28,862 nucleotides of DNA from Monosiga brevicollis MX1. Taxonomy: Eukaryota > Opisthokonta > Choanoflagellata > Craspedida > Salpingoecidae. A program made the translations under genes and the position numbers. Numbering within the stretch: the first letter of the stretch is position 1; every line of letters begins with the position of its first letter. The stretch spans positions 535,604 to 564,465 of the forward strand of contig NW_001865064.1 of the NCBI RefSeq assembly GCF_000002865.3, given 5' to 3'. Positions 2,476-24,458 of the stretch are shown here, in pieces. The notes beneath the pieces are model-generated. The model made no database searches and was not told the DNA's origin. It worked only from the letters and a program-made list of their open reading frames with translations.

Positions 2476-4148
<1,673 letters not shown>

Positions 4149-5147: not shown

Positions 5148-7534
5148 CTACGGCCAGAGCAAACGAGATACAATGGCCGTGCTGAGAGATGACGCACCAT
5201 TGGTCAGTGGGGCGGGGCTTGCACGAATGGTTTGATTGAGGACAACACCCGCGGCGTTGGGGGCTGATCGTGTGTTGACGGTGGCGCCAGCACGATTGCC
5301 TCCTACGGCTCCAGTGGCTTCAAGGGACATGCGCTGCAGCACCTGCACGCATTGGCTATAGCCTGTCCCAAGCGCGACCCCAAGCAAACAAGCAAATGAT
5401 TGGTCATGAGATGCATGGTCAAGAGAAGGAACTTGCTCGCAGGAAAATGGATATTCAGACATCAAGGCCTGCCTACCTCGCGCAGTGGCGTAATGTAGCG
5501 GCGTCATGCCATTGGAGTCACGAAACGAGGGCTTGGCGCCACGTTGCGCAAGGGCTTTGCAAATGTCCGGACGATTGCACACGGCAGCCCTATCCAAAGA
5601 GCATCGGATGAGACACGCGGCGAGTGCCTACAGATCGCGGGGTTGAGAACAAGGGGACTGACCAGTGAAGCGGAGTGGTCATGCGTGAATCAGTGCAGTT
5701 GACGTCGAGTTGCGGTCGGCTCAACAACGTCACAACAATGTCAAGCGGGCTGGTTGCGGAGATGGCCAGGTGCAGAGGCGCTCGCCCACGGTCGTCGCGC
5801 GCATTGACATGGCTATCGTCATTCTCCAACAACATCTGCGCCAGCCACGGCTGAGCATGAGGCAAGCCGAACCGAAACTCTTCTATCACAACACAATAAT
5901 GCGAGTTTATGGATGGCTACGTGCTAGGTTGGACATACCCGAAGACATCGCGGAGTGTCGCTGGATACGGCATAGTGAAACGCCGTGCGCCCCTCGGCAT
6001 CGGCAACCGTCGAGTCAGCTCCAGCACGCAGCAATCGTGCCAGGTGCTCAACATGACGGCACATAATGCTCCAGTGCAGAGGCGTCACCAGTTCCGTATC
6101 GCGGTGGTTGATTAGCTCCAGCGGCGCCACCTGTTCAAGAGGGAGTGGGTCGCGAGCGTGAACAAGAGCAAGCAGGACCCAAGCACCACACGTGAAAAGA
6201 TGCATAGAAACAAAACGAGAACAACAAAAAAAAAGGGGGGGGGGATTGAAAACAAAAAGTCACAAAACCAGGTCAGAAAGCCGGAAAGTTTGACGCACAC
6301 GCAGTAGAATATCGAGGCTGCGCGTAGAGGGATGCTTGCAGGCCCAGTGAATGGCCGAACGACCTTCAGGGTCCATAAAGCCGAGCAATTCCCGGTTGGC
6401 GCGCAATAATGCTCGGATCACTTCGGCATGGCCATAGTAGGCCGCCCAGAGAAGCGCTGTGCGCCCGTTGTTGTCGCGCGCCGATGCATCTGCATTGCTC
6501 TTTAAGAGCAGTTCGACGGAGCGCACGCGGTTGGCAATGGCGGCATACATGAGCGGCGTGCGTCCAAGCGCATCACAGCTGTTGACGTCGAGTGTTTGCA
6601 GCAAGGCCTTGATAGCCACACGGTCTCCCTGGCCGGCCGCCGAGTGCAGCATTGTGGCACCGTGCTGCTGCCATTCCTCGTACTGCTGCTGAGCGTCTGC
6701 CGAAGCGGGTTCTTCTTCGGCCGTGGTACCATTCATGGTGAAGGAGCGATCCAGCGCATCGCTGCTGCGTGCTTCACCAAGACGGCCACCGAGCAGTTCC
6801 CGTCGTGCACCACTGGCCCCGGTGGAAGCAGATCGCGCACGCCGCGACACGCGACTGGCGCCTGTGCCGGGCGAAAGCAAGTCGCCACCTGAATTCTGAC
6901 CCGTGCCTGAAGCGCGGGCCTCAGTTTGACTCGGACGCCCGGCTCCACGGATGTGAGTCGCGGCCCGCAGTGTAGACCCAAGACGGGCCAGGCGTGCTCG
7001 AAGCCCCGTGCCCTGGCTGACGCCAAGGTTACTACCGGCACTCTCCAAACCACTGCCCGTATCGCTCTCATCATGACCATTGGTATCCTGAGTGCGGTGT
7101 GGCACGGCCGAGTCTGACTCGGAGAGGGTAGAGCTGCTGCGGGGAGCGGGGCTAGCTGTGCCGGCAACCTGCGAGGCTGAGACGGCATGACGCACGCGGC
7201 GCTGGGTGCTATACTGCGTGAAGCGGTAAAACACATGTGGCGAGGAAACAAAAGGCTCGTCACTCTTTTGTGGGTCCAGCGGCTCAAATAACCCAAGGTC
7301 GAGTAGTTGCTGGCCCGTCTGTTGGGCGGCCGTCACGTCGTTCACCCCTTCCATGTTTTGCATGACCCACTGGGTGATGGCTTGGCCAGGAAAGACGTTG
7401 CGGTGCAGCTTGAGTTGAAACTGGCAATCCTGCGTTGGCACGCCAGTTGTGGGGTGGCGCAGAGCACGAATGTACATGTTGAGCAGCTGCTGTTGACGTT
7501 GCTGCTCCTGTCGCTGCTGCTGCGTCTCCTCCAC
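5148..7534 (-). CDS. DEP domain plus ankyrin-repeat protein (possibly the C-terminal half of a kinesin fusion)
   Basis: Five exons on the minus strand: 7534-6269, 6130-5939, 5850-5663, 5589-5477 and 5362-5148 (TAG). They encode 657 aa. A Gln-rich start (EETQQQRQEQQRQQQLL) leads into a DEP domain at about residues 15-105 (GVPTQDCQFQLKLHRNVFPG, then a C-terminal VFYRFT). A Ser/Arg/Gly-rich linker follows. At least seven ankyrin repeats come next, several with TPLH-type turns (GRTPLMYAA, GRTALLWAA, GRSAIHWAC, VTPLHWS, GRAPLHLA, TTPLHWA, MTPLHYA). DEP domains commonly bind acidic phospholipids or GPCR/G-protein modules; ankyrin repeats bind partner proteins. The first exon begins right after a TTAG acceptor and has an in-frame TAG just upstream. 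It therefore needs either an upstream exon or a start at the internal ATG at 7477 (638 aa). Exon phases 0, 0, 2, 1 all close. Partner and pathway are unknown. Confidence 0.85.
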
Positions 7535-7638: not shown

Positions 7639-10600
7639 CATGCTACCAACCTCTGAGGTTTCTGTCTCGGTTTCCTCCTGATCCTGGGCTCCGTCACTTT
7701 CATTGTTATCATGGCGATTCTTGCAAACTTTTGAACGTGTTTTGGAATCAACGTCTTGGACGGTGACCTTGGTCCGACCCGGCGAAGGGGTGGGCGTTTG
7801 AAGAGTGTCCATGGGGCTGAGCTCAGCGCGTTCTGATTCCGACTCGGACGAAGAGAGCTCAGCGGAAGCGCGGCCCGTTGTCTTGAGGGGCCGGCCGGAA
7901 TGAGTACGTACAAAGCCACGGCCAGACTGCTGGGGAAGGAGATAGCTCGCTCGCGATCCAGCGGCTTCGCGAGTGGGTGTGGCCCGGTCATCAGCGTCGA
8001 CATCAGTCACCTCAGCTGTCGGAGGAAGTGTTGAGCGCAAAGGAGATTGGGGTGGAGGCAAGAACCGTGGTGGGCCTGCCCCTGGATGAACAGAGTAGCA
8101 ACGTTGATGAGCCATGGGCAGACACAGGCGGGCAAAAGATGACATGGGTCCAGGCATTCAGAGAGGCGAGAAGGAAAAGGCAACCGAAGGTAAAGGGCAA
8201 TGCGGCGTACGTTTAGGACCGCTGCTGGCACTGCTGCCGCGAGAGGTGGCATCCGAGGCCATGGAAGAGTGCGTTGAGTCTAAACAAAAGTAAACAAAGA
8301 AATGAGAAGAGGCCACCAAGGCGGGGGGGGTGGTTGCGTTGAATAGTTCTGTAACACACCCGTGCTGAGAGTCATGTGGCGCATGTCCTCATCCATACTG
8401 GAGGCGGTGGGTTCGGACGACAGCAAAGGAGCCGCGGCCAGCTCTGGGTTGGTAAGTGATAGTTCTGTGGCTTGGCGCACAAAGTCAGCGCGTTGGCGTT
8501 GGAATTCAAGCCGCTCCATTCGGAGTTGCTCACGCTCCGCTTCGAGCAGGGCCAGTTTGGCGTCGTACTCGTTGGCCAACTTGGCCTCCATGGCCTTGAC
8601 GGCAGCATGAAACTCGGGGGACTCTTCAATCTCAGCACCACCTAGAATCAAACGAGGGCGTTGAAATGGGTACGCGATCAGCAGGACAAAGTGCATGTTG
8701 CAGACTTGTTCCCACAAGGCTGTTGAGAACCAAATCGAGAAGGAAGCACAAGGACAAACCAGTGAGGAGCTGGCGTTCCATGGAGTGTATCTTGGCCCGA
8801 AGGCGCTTGGATTCCTCTTGGGCTGTGGCAACTGCTGCGGTGCGGGCTTCAAGCTCGTTGGCCATGGCTTCTTTCTCGGTGGTGAGGCGTAGCTTTTGTT
8901 CCTTAAGCTGGGTCACGGCCACACCGCCTAGGCATGGGGAAGGACCGATGAGTGAGTGATAATCATATTCTTCCGTAGAACCTGGAGGGCAAAGGGCAGA
9001 GGGTGTGCGGCGTACGAGAGGAATCGGCCAGGGCTTTGCGAAGCCGCTTAATTTCACTTTCGTAAGCCGAAAGGAGGGCGCTGTTGTTGAGGTCTTGATT
9101 CACATATGCATAGTTCTTGACCTGCTTGGCGCGCTTGGCAAACTTGAGACTGTAGGCGCGGGCGGGACATGAAACGGTGAGGGCACTGTTGCAAGGAACG
9201 CACAGGTGTGTCCTCGGGACCGTACCTGTTGAGGGTTTCCGGGTAGCTGTTGGCCACGGCGGTGACGGCGGTGATCAGGGTTGTTTTGCAGTTGCCGCCC
9301 AGGCTCCCCTGCAGAAGGCGCGTGAGCTTGGAGTCACGGTAGGGGATGTGGTGGTTGCCTGGCGAAGTCAGAGCCAAGATAACCTAAACCAACGGAGAGA
9401 ATAAAAAAAAGCGGGGGGGGGGGGGCGGGGGGGTGGTTGTTGTGCGCGTGAGGCTGAGGCAATGAGGTGAACGATTTTGAAACTGAGTAGATGGGTGCTT
9501 GAGGGGCTGAGCTGACCTTGCCAAAGGCGGTGAGTGAGGTGTTGATGTTTTTCATCTCATCAAGCTGCTTGCCGCCTTGGATGCCGGTTTTAGAAATGCG
9601 TTCTGAACCAGCCAGGTCAACAAGGTTCAATTTGCCGATGGTGACGCTCTTGCCCTCGTCTAGAATGTGTTTGACCCATACGAATGCATCATCGTATGTA
9701 TGTGAGAGGCATCGCACCTGATGATGATCGCGCCGGTGGGTGGGCAGGCAGCAGGCGGGCAGGCAGCAGGTGGGCAAGCGGAGCGAGAGAGATAAAAAAA
9801 AAAAAAAAAAAACTCACCGTCTTCAGTACCAGCCTGTGATTTCTCGACAATGACGGTGAAGAGTGCATGGGAACGGCTGGACTGCTGGTTCATTTGGGTG
9901 GCACTGGTGGACCGCATCTTGGTGCCGAGTTGTAAAAGGTCGCAAATTTCGGACGGAGACTTGACAATGTGTTCAGACAGGCCAGAGACGTAGACGTCGG
10001 TGTTGGGGTCGGAGCGGATGCGCAACTGTTTGGCGTCAGTGTTGTGTAAAGCGTCGGGATTGAGAAGATCGCTAATTTTTTCGTTGTAAATCTGAAGGAA
10101 GGAGACGCGGACCAGGTAGGTCACGTTTGGTGTCTGGTCGCCTTCAATATGCTGGAAAATCTCACTGGCAGCGCGAGGGATGATGCCTCGGTCCTCGGCC
10201 TCCTGTGATGGCGGGATTTGGCCGTGCGGTTAGGGTTGGGGTTGAAGGGTGGGGTTAAAGCTGAAGAATGGGCAACAGTCGGGGGGGGGGCGGGGACGAA
10301 AGATAGGCTGCACGGTGCAAAACTTGCTTCGGTGCCTTGAATGGTGTGGGTTTTTCCGGTGCCCGTTTGTCCGTAGGCAATGATGGAGCCGTTGTAGCCT
10401 GCCAAAAGTGAAGAGTTGTTGTGCGTCAAGACAAGGGAGGGTGGGGCATTGACGTTGGCAAGGGAAATGGGCGCGGGCGCAGGAGCAGCACGCTGGTGCT
10501 GGGCGGTTAAGAGCAAGCGGGGTCGACCTTCAAGACTGGAAAGGACAACGGGGCGCACGGCCGAGTCGTAGACATCCGACTGGCTGGCATTGGGCTCGTA

Positions 10601-15989: not shown

Positions 15990-17459
<1,470 letters not shown>

Positions 17460-20400
17460 ATGACCATGAGTGAAGATGGAAAGCAGCTGTACAATGCGTG
17501 TTTTCAACAAAGTTCAGAAAAGGCCCTGAAGCTGTTGAGCAGTTGGGACGCGCCACGTATTCAAGCCACAAATACTTACAAAGGCGGTGTACGTTTGCTG
17601 CTTGGTCGTGACGTTACACTCGCGTTCACATGTTCACATGGTATTCGACCTCTGGTGCGAAATGGTTAATGATGATGCTGCACCTGTCTACATGGTGGTA
17701 CCACAACCGGTAGATCGGCACATCTTTCTACGCTGCCTGTTTCAACGGTCATGTGCAGGTGGCGGAGATGCTATTGAGGCATGGCGCTGATGCCAACGCC
17801 AAGCACCTCGTCAGTACCTGCTCCATTCCCCTTTGGTGTGCATTTGCTGCTGACACATGGTATTTGGCATACGGGCCGCTCATGGTGCTATCATGGTGTT
17901 GCTACACCTGTTTACAATGGTGGTGGATCAACCTACAGGGGGACACTGCATTGCACTGGGCCTGTAGACTTTGTCATGTGGAGGTGGTGAAGATGCTATT
18001 GAAGCATGGCGCCGATGCATACGTTGCAAATGCCGTCAGTACCTCGCACTTTAATGATATTCCGTCTGTGCTTGGTTGCGCCGCGCGTGCTCCTCTCCTT
18101 CTCTCCTTTTTTTTTGCTTTGCGTCCACCCGTTTGACTTCACCGTACAACTCGCTTGTCGCTCGCCCATGTACCCGCCTCTTGCTCTTTGCTCTTGGTCA
18201 TTCATCTTTCTTCCTGTTATGGCTGTGTGCTCAGGAAGGTAAAACGCCCCTTGATCTGGTTCACCTAAGCGATCATGACACCAAGCTGGAGGATGTGTTT
18301 GTTGCGCACGAGATTCGTCTCGCACAACTTCCTGCCTGGCTGCCACCTCTACCCGGCGATACACCTACTATGCAGGTGGGTCCTCTCCTCATATGTCTTC
18401 AACTGCGATTCTTGCTTGTTTCCGTATCTGACGTATTCATGACCACTGACACCACACTACCCATAGACGACAGCCCATGTTGTGGGGGTGGTGCACGTTT
18501 GGCTCAAGCCACTCCTGCCCGGGCCCACCACCACCCATCCCTTCCCGTACCTCGATGCCCTGATCAGTGGTACCATCAAGCGCGACCCCAAGCTCGCAAC
18601 GGCGGTTGATGACATTCGAAAAATCATCAATGAAGCACCGGCAGAGGCATCTGTGATGGACTGTGCCACCCTTCAGGTCATCATCACTCAGGCCGTCGAC
18701 TCGCTTGATCAGGCACTACGGGCGCCCGAAGCGTTGAAAAATCGTTTGAGGCACTTGGATCCAAAGACCGACGCCGTGGAATCAGTGCTCCAAGATCTGC
18801 ATGACCTTGCAAACCAGTTTGAGCTGCAGCCAGTCCTTCACGAGCTCCAGACCGTGCTGGCAACATTTCCCGATCCACCTACTGCGCCGGCATCTGCACC
18901 CAAGACGCCCCCCGCCGATATTGCAACGGCCCTGAACAAACTTGCTATGCCGCGCAACATCGGGCCTGAGCGCCAAAAGCTGCTTGATAGCACTGAAAGC
19001 AACCTCAAGCGCCTGACACTGGCGCTGATCGATTCCCTGGGTGCTGTTGCGAAAGCAGGGGCTGCCGAAATGATTCAGTGCGTGGTCACGCTGTGGCGAT
19101 GCACGCAATGCTCGGATGTAAGCGAACCGCCTCCAGCCAAGGCGCTGCCCGAGGCGTGGAAGCAGCTCTGTCGAGCTCACGAGATGCTGAGTGTGCCCGA
19201 ACACAATGGTCTGGAGCAGCTTGCAATCTGGGTAGGAACGCATGACTATTTCCACCTGAATTGGTACCTGGCATTTGTGCATCACGAGTTGCTGGCTTTG
19301 ATGCAGAGGCTGCAGGACATGGCTGACTGGCAGACCACGACGCTGTCCGTGCTGGCTTTGTGCAAAACTTGTATCAATGAAATCACGCGGGACAGCGCAA
19401 GCCGGATTGTATCTGCACACGAAGAAATGTCCAAGTTACAGCAACAAATCCAGGCGACCAAAGCATTCTTGACTTTTGCTCCAGATGAGCTGCGTGCTGG
19501 GCTTGAAGCTGGTGTGCAAGACAAGCAAGAACGTCTGACCACCTTGCGCCATCAGTTGGCTGCTCAGCCACACGTGGATCGTGTCGCAGAGCTGGCAAAG
19601 CTGTTGCATCAGCACTTCCCAGCCCTACTGGTATTGCTGCATCCCGAACAAAGCTCCTTGGGAGCACACCTTCGTGCAGTGCTTGGACCTGACCTGCCCG
19701 CCAGTCTCATCTTTGAGGTCATGACCGAAGTGAATCAGGCGTTGACGCTCTCCAGTCTGGGCCAGCTTGACCTATACTACAATCAGAACCACAAAGTGTA
19801 CAAAGCCCACGCCGCGCTGCCCAACTGTTCCGCGCAAGACTTGGCCGTGAAAGAGTATGCCTTTGCTCGGCAACAAAAGCATGATCAGTGCCGCACGTTT
19901 CTCCGTGAACTCCGCGCCATGCGTCAGCTGGAGCACCCAAACATCATCCCGGTCCTCGGCACGCTTGTGGACGTGCACAATGGCCACCCCAGCGCATACC
20001 TGGTGCAGCCGTGGTGTACGCAGGGAGATTTGCAGCAGTGGCTTAGCAGAGCGCGTCACCTGGCCACCTCGGCCGTGATTACGGGTTTGATGAATCAGTT
20101 GCGCGCAGCATTGGCTTTTATGCACAGCAAAGGCTTGGTGCATCGGGATGTCAAGCTGAGCAACGTCATGCTGGATGGTGAGGAGGATCGGCCGGTTGTC
20201 CGGCTTGGCGACTTTGACATGGCCAAGGCCGCCGCTGAAGCCACAATGCTACCATGTACAACCACTGCATCGTCGGGTACGGCCGGATATGTAGCTCCGG
20301 AGGTGCTTTTTGGTGACGGCTGTGTGGGTGCGCGCCCGGCGCAGGATGCCTTTTCCTTTGGCTGCGTTCTTTACAATACCTACATGTTTCCACAAACAGT

Positions 20401-21617
20401 GCCCGCTGCTCGTCTACCCACGGATCAGCTGGTTGACAAATGCAAATGGAATTTCCAAGCAGGAGGCACAGATTGCAGCTTTCCACACCTGGCGGCTGAG
20501 GTAAGCGCGACTTCGGAACTGACCAGTGGGGCATTGCTCTCTTAGTTTCATGATCAAACCTTATTTGGTGTTACTCGATGCAGATGTGTGATTCTGCGAG
20601 CTATCTGTATCGTGAAGCGCGGGCCTTGCTTGCCACTGATCCAAAGGGACGCCCCAGCCTATTTAGTGCCGGGCTGATTGCGCAGCAACCCGTCGCCCAC
20701 AAAGTTGGGCCAGCTATTGATGTTTTGCGCGATGCGCCTGAGCTTGTGCAGGAGGTGTGTTGTTCGAGAATGCAATTGCTTTTTTTTTTTGATCCGCAGG
20801 CTGATTTAAACCCGGGTGTGGCTAGGTGGCGGACCTGTTAGAACAGCTGAGTTGTGACGGGCGAGGACCGGACACGATTGCAGTGCGGCGGGTCAAGCGC
20901 GTCGAAAACCCAGTGTTGTGGGAGCGCTATAGTGCAAAGCGACGGGAGATGTTGCATCGCATCACGAGTCAGAGGCACTGCGATCAACTTCAAACGGCTA
21001 AAGTGGATGCGCTCCCAGGCCTTCCGGCCTTGCTTCGCAACACATCCTGTCAGGAGCGGCTGCTGCTCCACGGGATCGCCGCCGACAAATCGCTGCGTGA
21101 CAAGATTGTGCGCCTGGGCCTCGACTATCGCTTTGCGGGCAGCAGCAGAGGTCATCGCTTTGGGCACGGCACGTATTTGTCGGATCATCCTGGCAAGGTC
21201 TGACAGCACTGGCTTCTCCTTGCTATTTTCTTCATTCAAATGCTGCTGTGCTGACGTATTGTGTGTTGACTTGCATGTAGACCCATCAGTACGCCAAGGC
21301 TGGCCCCAACGGTGAACGCATGCTCATTGTGACGAGAGCACTGCTCGGCCAAGCCTATGTCGATGAAGCGCCTAACTCGAAGGCGCTGGCACCCCCGCTT
21401 CTGCCCAGTGCGCCGAACAACGAACGGTGGGTGCGCGGGACAGAGTCGGCCTTTGATGCGTGTTGGTCTTTGCATCTGACCTGCCGACTGCTGCGCCTGG
21501 CTTTTCTTCAGATACGATTCGGTTATTGCGACGCCGCATGGGCGATTTCAAGAGGTCATTATGTTTGAGAATGCCCAAATGTATCCCGAGTTGGTGGTGT
21601 ACTACACGGCCGATTAG
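17460..21617 (+). CDS. Ankyrin repeat - protein kinase - PARP-type ADP-ribosyltransferase fusion protein
   Basis: Nine exons (17460-17588, 17714-17809, 17939-18034, 18235-18375, 18467-20500, 20584-20754, 20826-21197, 21281-21426, 21512-21617) encode 1096 aa. An in-frame TAA 9 nt upstream supports the start; a second ATG lies at 17466. Residues 1 to about 130 hold ankyrin repeats (FYAACFNGHVQVAEMLLRHG, TALHWACRLCHVEVVKMLLK, GKTPLDL). Residues 155 to about 580 are helical, with no known domain. The kinase covers about 587-865: no clear Gly-rich loop, Lys616 (LAVKEY), Glu635 in helix C, catalytic HRDVKLSN at 713, DFD in place of DFG at 736-738, GTAGYVAPE at 764, then DPKGRPS. The Ser/Thr or TKL type fits best. 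The PARP domain is about 900-1096: VKRVENPVLWERY, His971 in LLLHG, GHGTYLSDHPGKTHQY with Tyr1017, YDSVIA, and Glu1076 before VIMFENAQMYPE. H-Y-E is the triad of polymer-forming PARPs, so the enzyme should transfer ADP-ribose from NAD+. Substrates are unknown. Confidence 0.92.
17589..18034 (+). repeat. Tandem duplication of an intron plus ankyrin exon
   Basis: Unit 1 is intron 17589-17713 (125 nt) plus exon 17714-17809 (96 nt). Unit 2 is intron 17810-17938 (129 nt) plus exon 17939-18034 (96 nt). The exons are alike (AAGATGCTATTGAAGCATGG in unit 2 versus GAGATGCTATTGAGGCATGG in unit 1). The introns are also alike, sharing CACATGGTATT and a CACCTGTnTACAnTGGTGG block near the 3' end. The exons are followed by the same donor context, GTCAGTACCT. 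Intron similarity means the copy is recent and spans non-coding DNA. Confidence 0.8.
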
Positions 21618-21886: not shown

Positions 21887-24130
21887 TTAGATGTTGATGT
21901 ACAAAGGCTCCACGGGAAGTGCGCCCACTGGGGTATAGTCAAGCTGGCACACCTGTGGCTCAGCTCCTTCACGATTGATTGTGATCTCGATGCTCAAGCG
22001 AACGTCGGCATTCACCGTCTGAGTCAGACACATGATACTTGTATCATCTGCAGGCTCCATGTCAGCCTCAACCACCAGGTCTTGAGGGGCATCGTGCTCG
22101 TTGATTTTGCATTTGACCTGCGTGGATGGGGGGTCACACTTGATCACGATATTGAGTTGAGTCTTTTTGCTTCGCTCAACAAGCCTGTCAACGGTCCAGT
22201 CATCATCTGCTCTTGTAATAATCTTGGTGATGACTGTTTTGCACAAGGCGATCAGGCTGCTTGCTTTTTTGAACGTTAAAAGACATTCATTTGTCTCCTC
22301 TAGAAATCCAGACGCCTGTTTTTTGAAAAACAAGCGTTGGGTCGGATGCCCTAAAAAGTAGTCGTGAAGCTTCTCCAAGCGATTTCTTAGAACCTTAAAG
22401 GAGTTGTCCTATCGAAAGCAGTAACATCGTGTGAGTCCTGTAACACACTAAACACGCCATGCCATGCACCTTACCGCGTCAAAGAGCCAGGGGCAATCTT
22501 TCAGAATGGATGGATGCAATATGTTGGCGGCGAGAAAAGAGAGTTCAACCAAACTTTCCTTCACGCCGTGTGTGGTCGGCCATAGATCTGTGCCTGCCTG
22601 ACTGATGTTGCAGACGGTCTGCGCTACGTCACGAACAATGATCGCATCACGCAAGGCCAGTTGAAGCTTGCAGGAGCTTGGGCTGAGATAAAAAAGAGCA
22701 TTGCATTCAAAATCGACAGGAGGATCGCTGTTCTGTGGCCGGTCAACTCTTCGAAAGTTGACGGGGATTGCGTCGGTCGGGCGAAAGTAGGACTTGAAGC
22801 CAAGATCATACAAAAGGATGCTCGACACTCCATTGACGTGTGCGAACAAATGTTTCAAGTCGATGTTTGATGGTTTGGATGGCATTTGCCAACACAACCC
22901 AGCAACGTTGCTGCTCAGCCGTGCTTGATCTAGGGCGAGAAATGATGCGCCTGTGTTTGGGTTGTCCTCTTGAACTTTTGCACGTTGAATCGCATGAGCC
23001 ACCGATTTGTTTCGCTTGGTCTTGAGAGCTGCGAGCACGCTTGAAAGCGTTTCTTTCCATTGAGAAACACCAATTTGTTTTTCAAACAAGCTTGCCGTTG
23101 CCTCCAAGACGTCTTCAGTCAGGACTGGCCTTGAGAGCTGATTGTGCACTAATAGGCCACCTGCTACCGCGCTGAGCTTCTCGCACAGGATCGTTTGTGT
23201 GTCATATCGAGAGGGACCTTGGCACCATTCTGCATATGATTCAGCCAGCTTCGCGTGTATGTTCCATACGAGCACAGTGTCCAGAACGCTCGCATGGCAA
23301 TTGGTCCAAAGCTTCTTGTTCTTTTGATTCGTAATGCCCTTAATGATATTTCTGACCGCGTCTTCGCGCCCATTAGCATCAACGTGACCCAAGGCAGCTT
23401 TCAAGACAGAAGACAGATTCGTGGGGGCATTGTTGGCAACAACTTTTTCGCTGGGAATTCGGATGGCACCCACACGACGTCCAAAAAAAGCCTCGACCTT
23501 GTGGCGCACTTCAGGATCGAGCGAATCCGAATCAATGGCAACTTCACCATTCAACTTGATGGAAATATTTTGGCCATTTGCTTGTCCGACGTTGATCAGA
23601 AAGTCTCGCACAAACTTTTGAAGCTTTTGATTATCATCGTCGCCATCTTGCTCGATGATGAGCTCGCGCAGACGCTGTTCATGTTCGTCTTTCAAACGTG
23701 CCTGGATCGACGTCAGGTGATCAGTCGACAGCTCTTTCGAAATCGCTTTAACGACCGTTGGACGCCAGGTCATGAGCGCATTATACGTAAAAAGGTCGCC
23801 GCTGTTGTTTTGCTTGATTTCAAAAAGAGCATGATCGGCCAAGAAGCCTGCTATCATGGCCCGCAACGTGGCAAGTTTCTGCCGGTCGGAAAGTTTTTTT
23901 CGCAGCCTTTCTCTGGCCGTAGCGTTCCGATTGTTTGGCATCATTGAACGTTGCTGCCTCCACTGGAGACAGAAAAATGAGCAGTACAGCAATGCTCCTT
24001 GCTTCAGGCCTTGCTTCACGGTCCCTTGCTCATTGCATTGAATTGTCCGTCTGAATCCGCCCATTTTACGAGCGAGTCTGAAAGTGTACACGCCAGCAAA
24101 CTTTACAGGTGTGTGGACATTCCATGTCAT
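21887..24130 (-). CDS. Uncharacterised 725-aa protein, two exons
   Basis: Exon 1 (24130-22475) and exon 2 (22408-21887, TAA) join in phase 0 through a 66-nt intron with donor GTAAGG and acceptor TTCGATAG, reading WLFDA into DNSFKVLRNRLEK. I do not recognise the family. The N-terminal part is charged and helical (ATARERLRKKLSDRQKLATL). A middle region has an acidic stretch (IIEQDGDDDNQKLQKF) and many short helices. The C-terminal exon reads like a beta-rich module (QLNIVIKCDP, DVRLSIEITINREG) ending VEPLYINI. No signal peptide, transmembrane segment or cysteine cluster is evident. The start is uncertain: ATG 24130 is first, but a good acceptor (TTTTTCTGTCTCCAG before 23965) could remove a 5' segment in phase, and MMPNNRN at 23944 is another start. 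Its codons look less GC-rich than those of its neighbours, by eye. Confidence 0.75.
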
Positions 24131-24458
24131 GACTTTTCGACATTAACGCCACAGCAGGCCGCACACCTTTGTGGGTCATCGTGGTAGAATCCGCTTGTGA
24201 CCTGGTCCCGACCTTCACTCATGAGTCTGCGCGCTGCCGGCGAGTGAGTGCCCCAACCGTCCACCCCCATGCCCATGGGTTTGGTGCAAGAGAAAAAAGA
24301 CAACATCGACACTAGCGCTGCAGGAAGCGTGCTGATGCAGCCTGGACCTCATGTCTCCTTCTTCGACAGTCCTCACTGCGATCCTAACCAATGTAAAAAA
24401 AGCCAAGAACCCGCCCTTCCCCCTGCCGACTCGTCGATCTCGATCTCTAGGAAAAGAT

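Follow-up and report, generated by a model that had tools for sequence, protein, structure and literature searches.

The 28,862-nucleotide stretch of Monosiga brevicollis MX1 DNA analysed here (contig NW_001865064.1, positions 535,604 to 564,465; hereafter the window) carries on its forward strand, at 17460-21617, a gene whose predicted product combines ankyrin repeats, a protein kinase domain and a PARP catalytic domain in one chain. This three-domain architecture is well supported by the sequence and its comparison across paralogues. The gene belongs to a large family in the same genome, whose ankyrin repeats carry five hypervariable positions. We propose that the family could represent a lineage-expanded set of single-chain intracellular recognition enzymes with a kinase-PARP output, a proposal that we consider evenly poised between right and wrong.

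Nine GT-AG exons, when spliced, give a single open frame of 1096 codons followed by TAG; the first seven of the eight introns are in phase 0 and the last one in phase 2. An earlier note on this DNA had read the locus as one gene with the order ankyrin-kinase-PARP, and this reading holds: the splice model is open, the order is kept across the paralogues, and the profile searches that the note had proposed for the 1096-residue model found all three domains in Pfam. These are ankyrin repeats at about residues 12-115 (Ank_2, E = 7.1e-14; Ank_4, E = 3.4e-14), Pkinase at residues 609-800 (E = 3.6e-35) and PARP at residues 906-1092 (E = 2.7e-9; 37.3 bits for a cut-off of 26.7).

According to the splice model, exon 1 (17460-17588) contains the start and an N-terminal ankyrin-like cap, also seen in five paralogues. 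Exons 2 (17714-17809) and 3 (17939-18034) each encode a single ankyrin repeat of 32 residues, recognised by Pfam and bounded by phase 0 at both ends, and exon 4 (18235-18375) a C-terminal half repeat with a proline-rich linker (WLPPLP). A middle region, residues 155-586 (18467-19762), precedes the kinase domain, which covers residues 587-866 (19763-20685; Pfam) and runs through exon 5 to 20500 and, after the intron at 20501-20583, into exon 6. Comparison of the copies places its Lys616 at 19850-19852, the HRD Asp715 at 20147-20149 and the DFD Asp736 at 20210-20212. The PARP catalytic domain, delimited by Pfam and a PDB sequence search, starts at about 20874 in exon 7 (20826-21197), where the copy comparison locates the triad residues His971 (21069-21071) and Tyr1006 (21174-21176). 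It continues through exon 8 (21281-21426; splice model, Pfam) and ends in exon 9 (21512-21617), with Glu1076 at 21552-21554 and the stop TAG at 21615-21617. All of these elements lie on the forward strand.

Exon 1 was identified in five paralogues. Four of them lack the first ATG and have Met-Ser at the second one, with the N-termini MSDDG (twice), MSDG and MSLDG; the fifth, L016, reads MSDDDDG starting at the first ATG. Since the first ATG is absent in four of these five copies, translation probably starts at the second ATG, 17466, giving a protein of 1094 residues instead of 1096.

A family of paralogues with conserved order

The earlier note missed that the gene is one of about 40 paralogues. 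The genome searched comprised 39.47 Mb in 57 contigs, window included. At least 42 loci, the window copy among them, match the middle and kinase exons (42 of 754 candidates scored), and at least 40 of these 42 have a match to PARP exon 7 directly downstream on the same strand, among the matches listed and with the tables paired by eye. The two loci without an exon-7 partner among these matches are C17:198062-199342 and G000:C9:58464-60122, the latter being a minus-strand family member that matches residues 151-703 only, within an open frame of 2220 residues. Four further near-full exon-7 matches, at C9:9603, C40:821113, C44:27208 and C37:18466, have no scored kinase partner.

Thirty copies were modelled, namely the window copy and 29 paralogues taken as 5-kb loci (L009-L038). 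Exons 4-9 were sought by homology, with GT, AG and fixed phases imposed; canonical sites and phases are thus given by construction, and the models show only that open exons of near-fixed length occur in the expected order. Models were obtained for exon 4 in 27 of the 30 loci and for exons 5-9 in 29. Exon 5 encodes 674-683 residues, exon 7 has 124 residues in 28 of the 30 models and exon 9 has 33-35 in 27. After inspection of the odd models, exons 5-9 are open in 27 of the 30 copies, and a pseudogene family is rejected for most of them on this ground. The breaks in the other three, an early stop in exon 5 (L021) and frame breaks in exon 7 (L015) and exon 6 (L010), are either real or assembly errors.

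Selection was assessed in 28 copies (378 pairs), with L015 and L021 left out and L010 kept. The median ratio of nonsynonymous to synonymous substitution (dN/dS) is 0.13 for the kinase, 0.16 for the PARP domain (351 usable of the 378 pairs) and 0.26 for the middle region. These low ratios, together with the conserved catalytic residues described below, indicate that both the kinase and the PARP domain are maintained.

Four pairs of copies were compared for exchange, and two of them are the clearest. For L032 and L034, both on C28, identity falls from 99.6% upstream to 95% in exon 5 and 70% downstream. L027 and L031, located on C48 at about 650 and 575 kb, display the inverse gradient (82% upstream, 95% in exon 5, 99% downstream); this duplicate pair has a near-identical kinase-PARP part and a more divergent ankyrin part. 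Since the ankyrin parts of L032 and L034 are nearly identical while their downstream regions are just 70% alike, the comparison suggests that modules have been exchanged between copies. The protein distances of the middle, kinase and PARP parts correlate incompletely (r 0.42-0.65). Furthermore, 12 of the 30 copies lie less than 50 kb from a contig end, for an expectation of at most 14.4% (binomial P = 5e-4, a value that is indicative only because the copies are clustered).

Variable positions of the ankyrin repeats

The array of the window protein is small, with two whole repeats (exons 2 and 3) between half-repeat caps (exons 1 and 4). Throughout the family, each ankyrin repeat corresponds to one phase-0 exon. 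The 30 loci contain 79 candidate repeat exons, of which 70 have 99 nucleotides, 4 have 96 (two of these being those of the window) and 5 are longer; the scan covered 1.5 kb upstream of exon 5, so that arrays reaching further upstream are cut off. Repeat statistics were obtained from the 70 repeats of 33 residues, which come from 26 of the 30 loci and represent 68 distinct sequences.

The proportions of nonsynonymous (pN) and synonymous (pS) differences were counted over 2415 repeat pairs. Positions 1, 3, 8, 11 and 12 have the highest nonsynonymous change and are identical to the top five by pN. At these five positions pN is 0.63 and pS 0.44, as opposed to 0.17 and 0.31 at the other positions, the overall pS being 0.32. 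When bootstrapped over loci, the pN of the hypervariable positions is 1.45 times their own pS (1.14-2.02) and 1.95 times the overall pS (1.47-3.03). The same pattern is observed inside single arrays (0.58 versus 0.37, 68 pairs). The contrast grows when the count is restricted to repeat pairs with near-identical cores, a selection that itself lowers core change. As judged by pairwise counting of paralogous repeats, the pN excess at these five positions exceeds the neutral expectation. The earlier note, which suggested that the ankyrin repeats recruit a target shared by both enzymes, overlooked this hypervariable face. Some 40 paralogues with such a face favour recognition of many changing ligands over docking of one common substrate. 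Joint action of the two enzymes on a single target, or regulation of one by the other, as the earlier note suggested, is nonetheless possible.

In designed ankyrin repeat proteins (DARPins), a conserved repeat framework carries variable positions on the binding face, and four of the five variable sites of the family presumably correspond to the randomised DARPin sites. Unlike DARPins, the family is natural and its arrays are attached to enzyme domains.

Introns 1 and 2 of the window gene resemble each other (score 26.5; shuffles have a mean of -3.7 and a standard deviation of 4.4), as would be expected if exon and intron were duplicated together as a cassette. Intron 3 shows no likeness to intron 1 (-21.0 versus -19.3) and at most a weak one to intron 2. 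Mutagenesis in the manner of diversity-generating retroelements, with change from asparagine codons alone, was rejected, as many codons at the variable sites are TGG or have G or A in third place. Targeted mutation of a more general kind is possible at these sites.

Catalytic domains, middle region and relation to known proteins

In the kinase domain, all of the 28 copies examined keep Lys616, Glu635 of helix αC, Asp715 of the HRD motif, Asn720 and Asp736 unchanged. On the other hand, DFG is replaced by DFD in all 28, and the glycine-rich loop is absent, with QNHKV in its place in 27 of 29 copies, the window copy included. The Pfam match and the catalytic residues thus agree with the protein kinase superfamily, whereas the glycine loop and DFG do not; these replacements lower the claim to ordinary phosphotransfer and leave the claim to the fold unaffected. 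A PDB sequence search with the kinase part matched many kinases. Matches in PADLOC and NCBIfam were likewise to kinases in general, and no NCBIfam match reached its cut-off. The AlphaFold model of exon 5 was poor (mean pLDDT 61.7, below 50 in the kinase part) and was set aside.

The PARP domain has the features of the PARP (ARTD) superfamily, namely a Pfam score above the cut-off and an H-Y-E triad. Among 28 copies, the triad His is present in 27 (Tyr in L030), and the Tyr and Glu in all. Such a triad would allow transferase activity. In a profile search among solved structures, PARP12, PARP15 and PARP14 rank first, which is a ranking and not a tree; PARP12 scores 64.6 bits and tankyrase-2 34.9 bits. 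This PARP12/14/15 group (clade 3) thus provides the closest catalytic domains of known structure. In its members the third triad place is taken by an aliphatic residue, Ile in the PARP12 alignment, whereas the window protein and its family have Glu. Pfam matched neither a zinc finger nor a WWE or macro domain in the window protein.

Tankyrases (PARP clade 4) similarly combine ankyrin repeats with a PARP catalytic domain, in their case with the H-Y-E triad. The window protein differs from them in its few repeats and its intervening kinase, and the earlier note was right to set it apart: no SAM domain is matched by Pfam at E<=0.1, only two repeats are whole, and PARP12 scores higher than tankyrase-2 with the PARP profile. 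A tankyrase identity is rejected on these grounds. Tankyrases are not detected in M. brevicollis according to the available part of one survey (PMC9688111). Clade 1 also includes ankyrin-PARPs, for instance Dictyostelium ADPRT3 and Caenorhabditis elegans PME-5; these have WGR and regulatory domains, and the accessible portions of the sources mention no kinase in them (PMC2964712, PMC4245714). In those same portions, ankyrin repeats joined to a PARP domain are described for clades 4 and 1 and also for M. brevicollis, again with no mention of a kinase, and the word 'kinase' appears nowhere in the available text of an earlier survey (PMC1266365). The earlier note knew of no described kinase-PARP fusion, and in agreement with it none was found in the literature searched, which covered few subscription papers; the genome and kinome papers of M. 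brevicollis may list the family.

Between the ankyrin repeats and the kinase lies a stretch predicted to be mostly helical (residues 155-586), conserved across the family and absent from the earlier note's description. Its AlphaFold2 model, built from 29 copies, is nearly all helix (mean pLDDT 74, pTM 0.51) and matches no fold in the PDB at E<=0.001. For the window member, no Pfam family scores above cut-off. The matches of this region in searches of Pfam, PDB profiles and PDB folds were weak and scattered, and most of them were to proteins made of helices or coiled coils. It is possible that the region could oligomerise or relay ligand binding.

An origin of the family outside eukaryotes was also considered. 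Middle-region patterns gave 27 pattern matches in viral contigs, and PARP patterns gave 32 in prokaryotic genomes, with no confirmed relative in either collection, neither of which covers eukaryotes. A viral and a prokaryotic source are rejected as far as these two collections go.

Proposed role, alternatives and surroundings of the gene

In the recognition reading, the N-terminal ankyrin array would bind changing protein ligands of parasite, viral, microbial or non-self origin, and ligand binding would act via the helical middle region to switch the kinase. The kinase, the PARP domain or both could then relay the signal, either through modification of the ligand, of the receptor's own chain or of host targets, or through NAD+ consumption. 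Duplication would help to generate the repertoire, as would repeat cassettes being gained or lost and paralogues exchanging sequence. In its most specific form, which we put forward tentatively and with less confidence than the general proposal, the family would comprise about 40 germline-encoded, DARPin-like receptors for changing parasite, viral or non-self proteins. These would serve an NLR-like immunity or allorecognition that has no nucleotide-binding switch and couples phosphorylation to ADP-ribosylation in one polypeptide. We infer this recognition role and both enzyme activities from sequence.

The main reason for proposing a receptor function is that the number of variable sites equals that in fungal NLR-like (STAND) receptors, which have ANK, TPR or WD repeats. 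In the part of the source available, a subset of the ANK and TPR repeats of fungal NLRs combines high internal conservation with repeat-number polymorphism and positive selection, and at one ANK locus five positions are positively selected, all but one on the concave binding face (PMC4986451). The family described here shares with these receptors many members, modular repeats and five diversifying ANK positions, the two sets of positions being matched in number and not one by one. It differs in that its repeats are N-terminal and that its output is a kinase and a PARP domain in one chain.

Several observations weigh against the receptor proposal. Diversifying repeat sites are found in the multigene family by counting, from which the window's own two repeats, of 32 residues, are excluded. 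The pN and pS values were counted pairwise over paralogous repeats and are not tree-based, and the five sites were named after viewing the repeats. Furthermore, the nucleotide-binding switch domain of NLRs was not found, as Pfam gave no NACHT or NB-ARC match in the window protein at E<=0.1. Without loop glycines and with DFD for DFG, the kinase may not phosphorylate. Finally, the open copy L030 lacks the PARP triad His, and 3 of the 30 copies are broken within exons 5-7.

The family could instead be an ordinary signalling one, in which the ankyrins dock endogenous substrates or scaffolds and the kinase and PARP domains modify the same clients, much as tankyrase docks its partners, the client list being divided among the copies with no conflict involved. 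The presence of three domains in one chain and the purifying selection on both catalytic domains speak for it. However, relaxed or divided docking predicts a pN near or below pS, whereas the five face positions exceed pS, and a set of about 40 copies that exchange modules would, in our judgement, be unusual for housekeeping signalling; we regard this explanation as unlikely. It also seems doubtful, if a little less so, that the kinase is a pseudokinase or has another chemistry and that it switches the PARP domain, the only effector, in a nucleotide-dependent way. The missing loop glycines and the DFD motif are what such a switch would lead one to expect, but the Lys, αC Glu, HRD Asp, Asn and metal-binding Asp are all invariant, and the kinase has the lowest dN/dS among the modules. 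A switch-only kinase is in any case compatible with either a receptor or a docking function and conflicts with the output step alone.

That separate kinase and PARP genes, or alternative transcripts, were mistakenly combined into one model is very improbable, and two misjoined genes are rejected. If intron 6 were left unspliced, translation would stop in 27 of the 30 models, and regulated retention of this intron is thus possible. Nevertheless, chance or misjoining is unlikely because a downstream PARP exon accompanies nearly all loci, with order and strand kept, and because most copies are open from exon 5 to exon 9. Moreover, just 64-120 nucleotides separate exon 6 (kinase) from exon 7 (PARP) in the 30 models, the PARP exons evolve as protein, and both domains are under purifying selection.

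In the window, the gene is preceded by a tandem array of about 212 ACAG copies (15991-16843). On the opposite strand it adjoins an open frame of 564 residues (22448-24142, minus strand) for which neither a Pfam match (E<=0.001) nor another match in the genome was found. Further away are a PTEN-like gene with a PTEN C2 domain (3039-4148, plus strand; E = 1e-29), one open frame with a DEP domain and ankyrin repeats (6260-7534, minus strand) and a partial kinesin motor domain (9660-10229, minus strand).

Since different arrays are paired with closely related enzymes among the copies, ligand screens are feasible. A chain that unites a kinase and a PARP domain would offer a natural model of how phosphorylation and ADP-ribosylation influence each other. 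If the recognition proposal is true, the family is a candidate answer to the question of how a single-celled eukaryote, a relative of animals, recognises intracellular threats or non-self.

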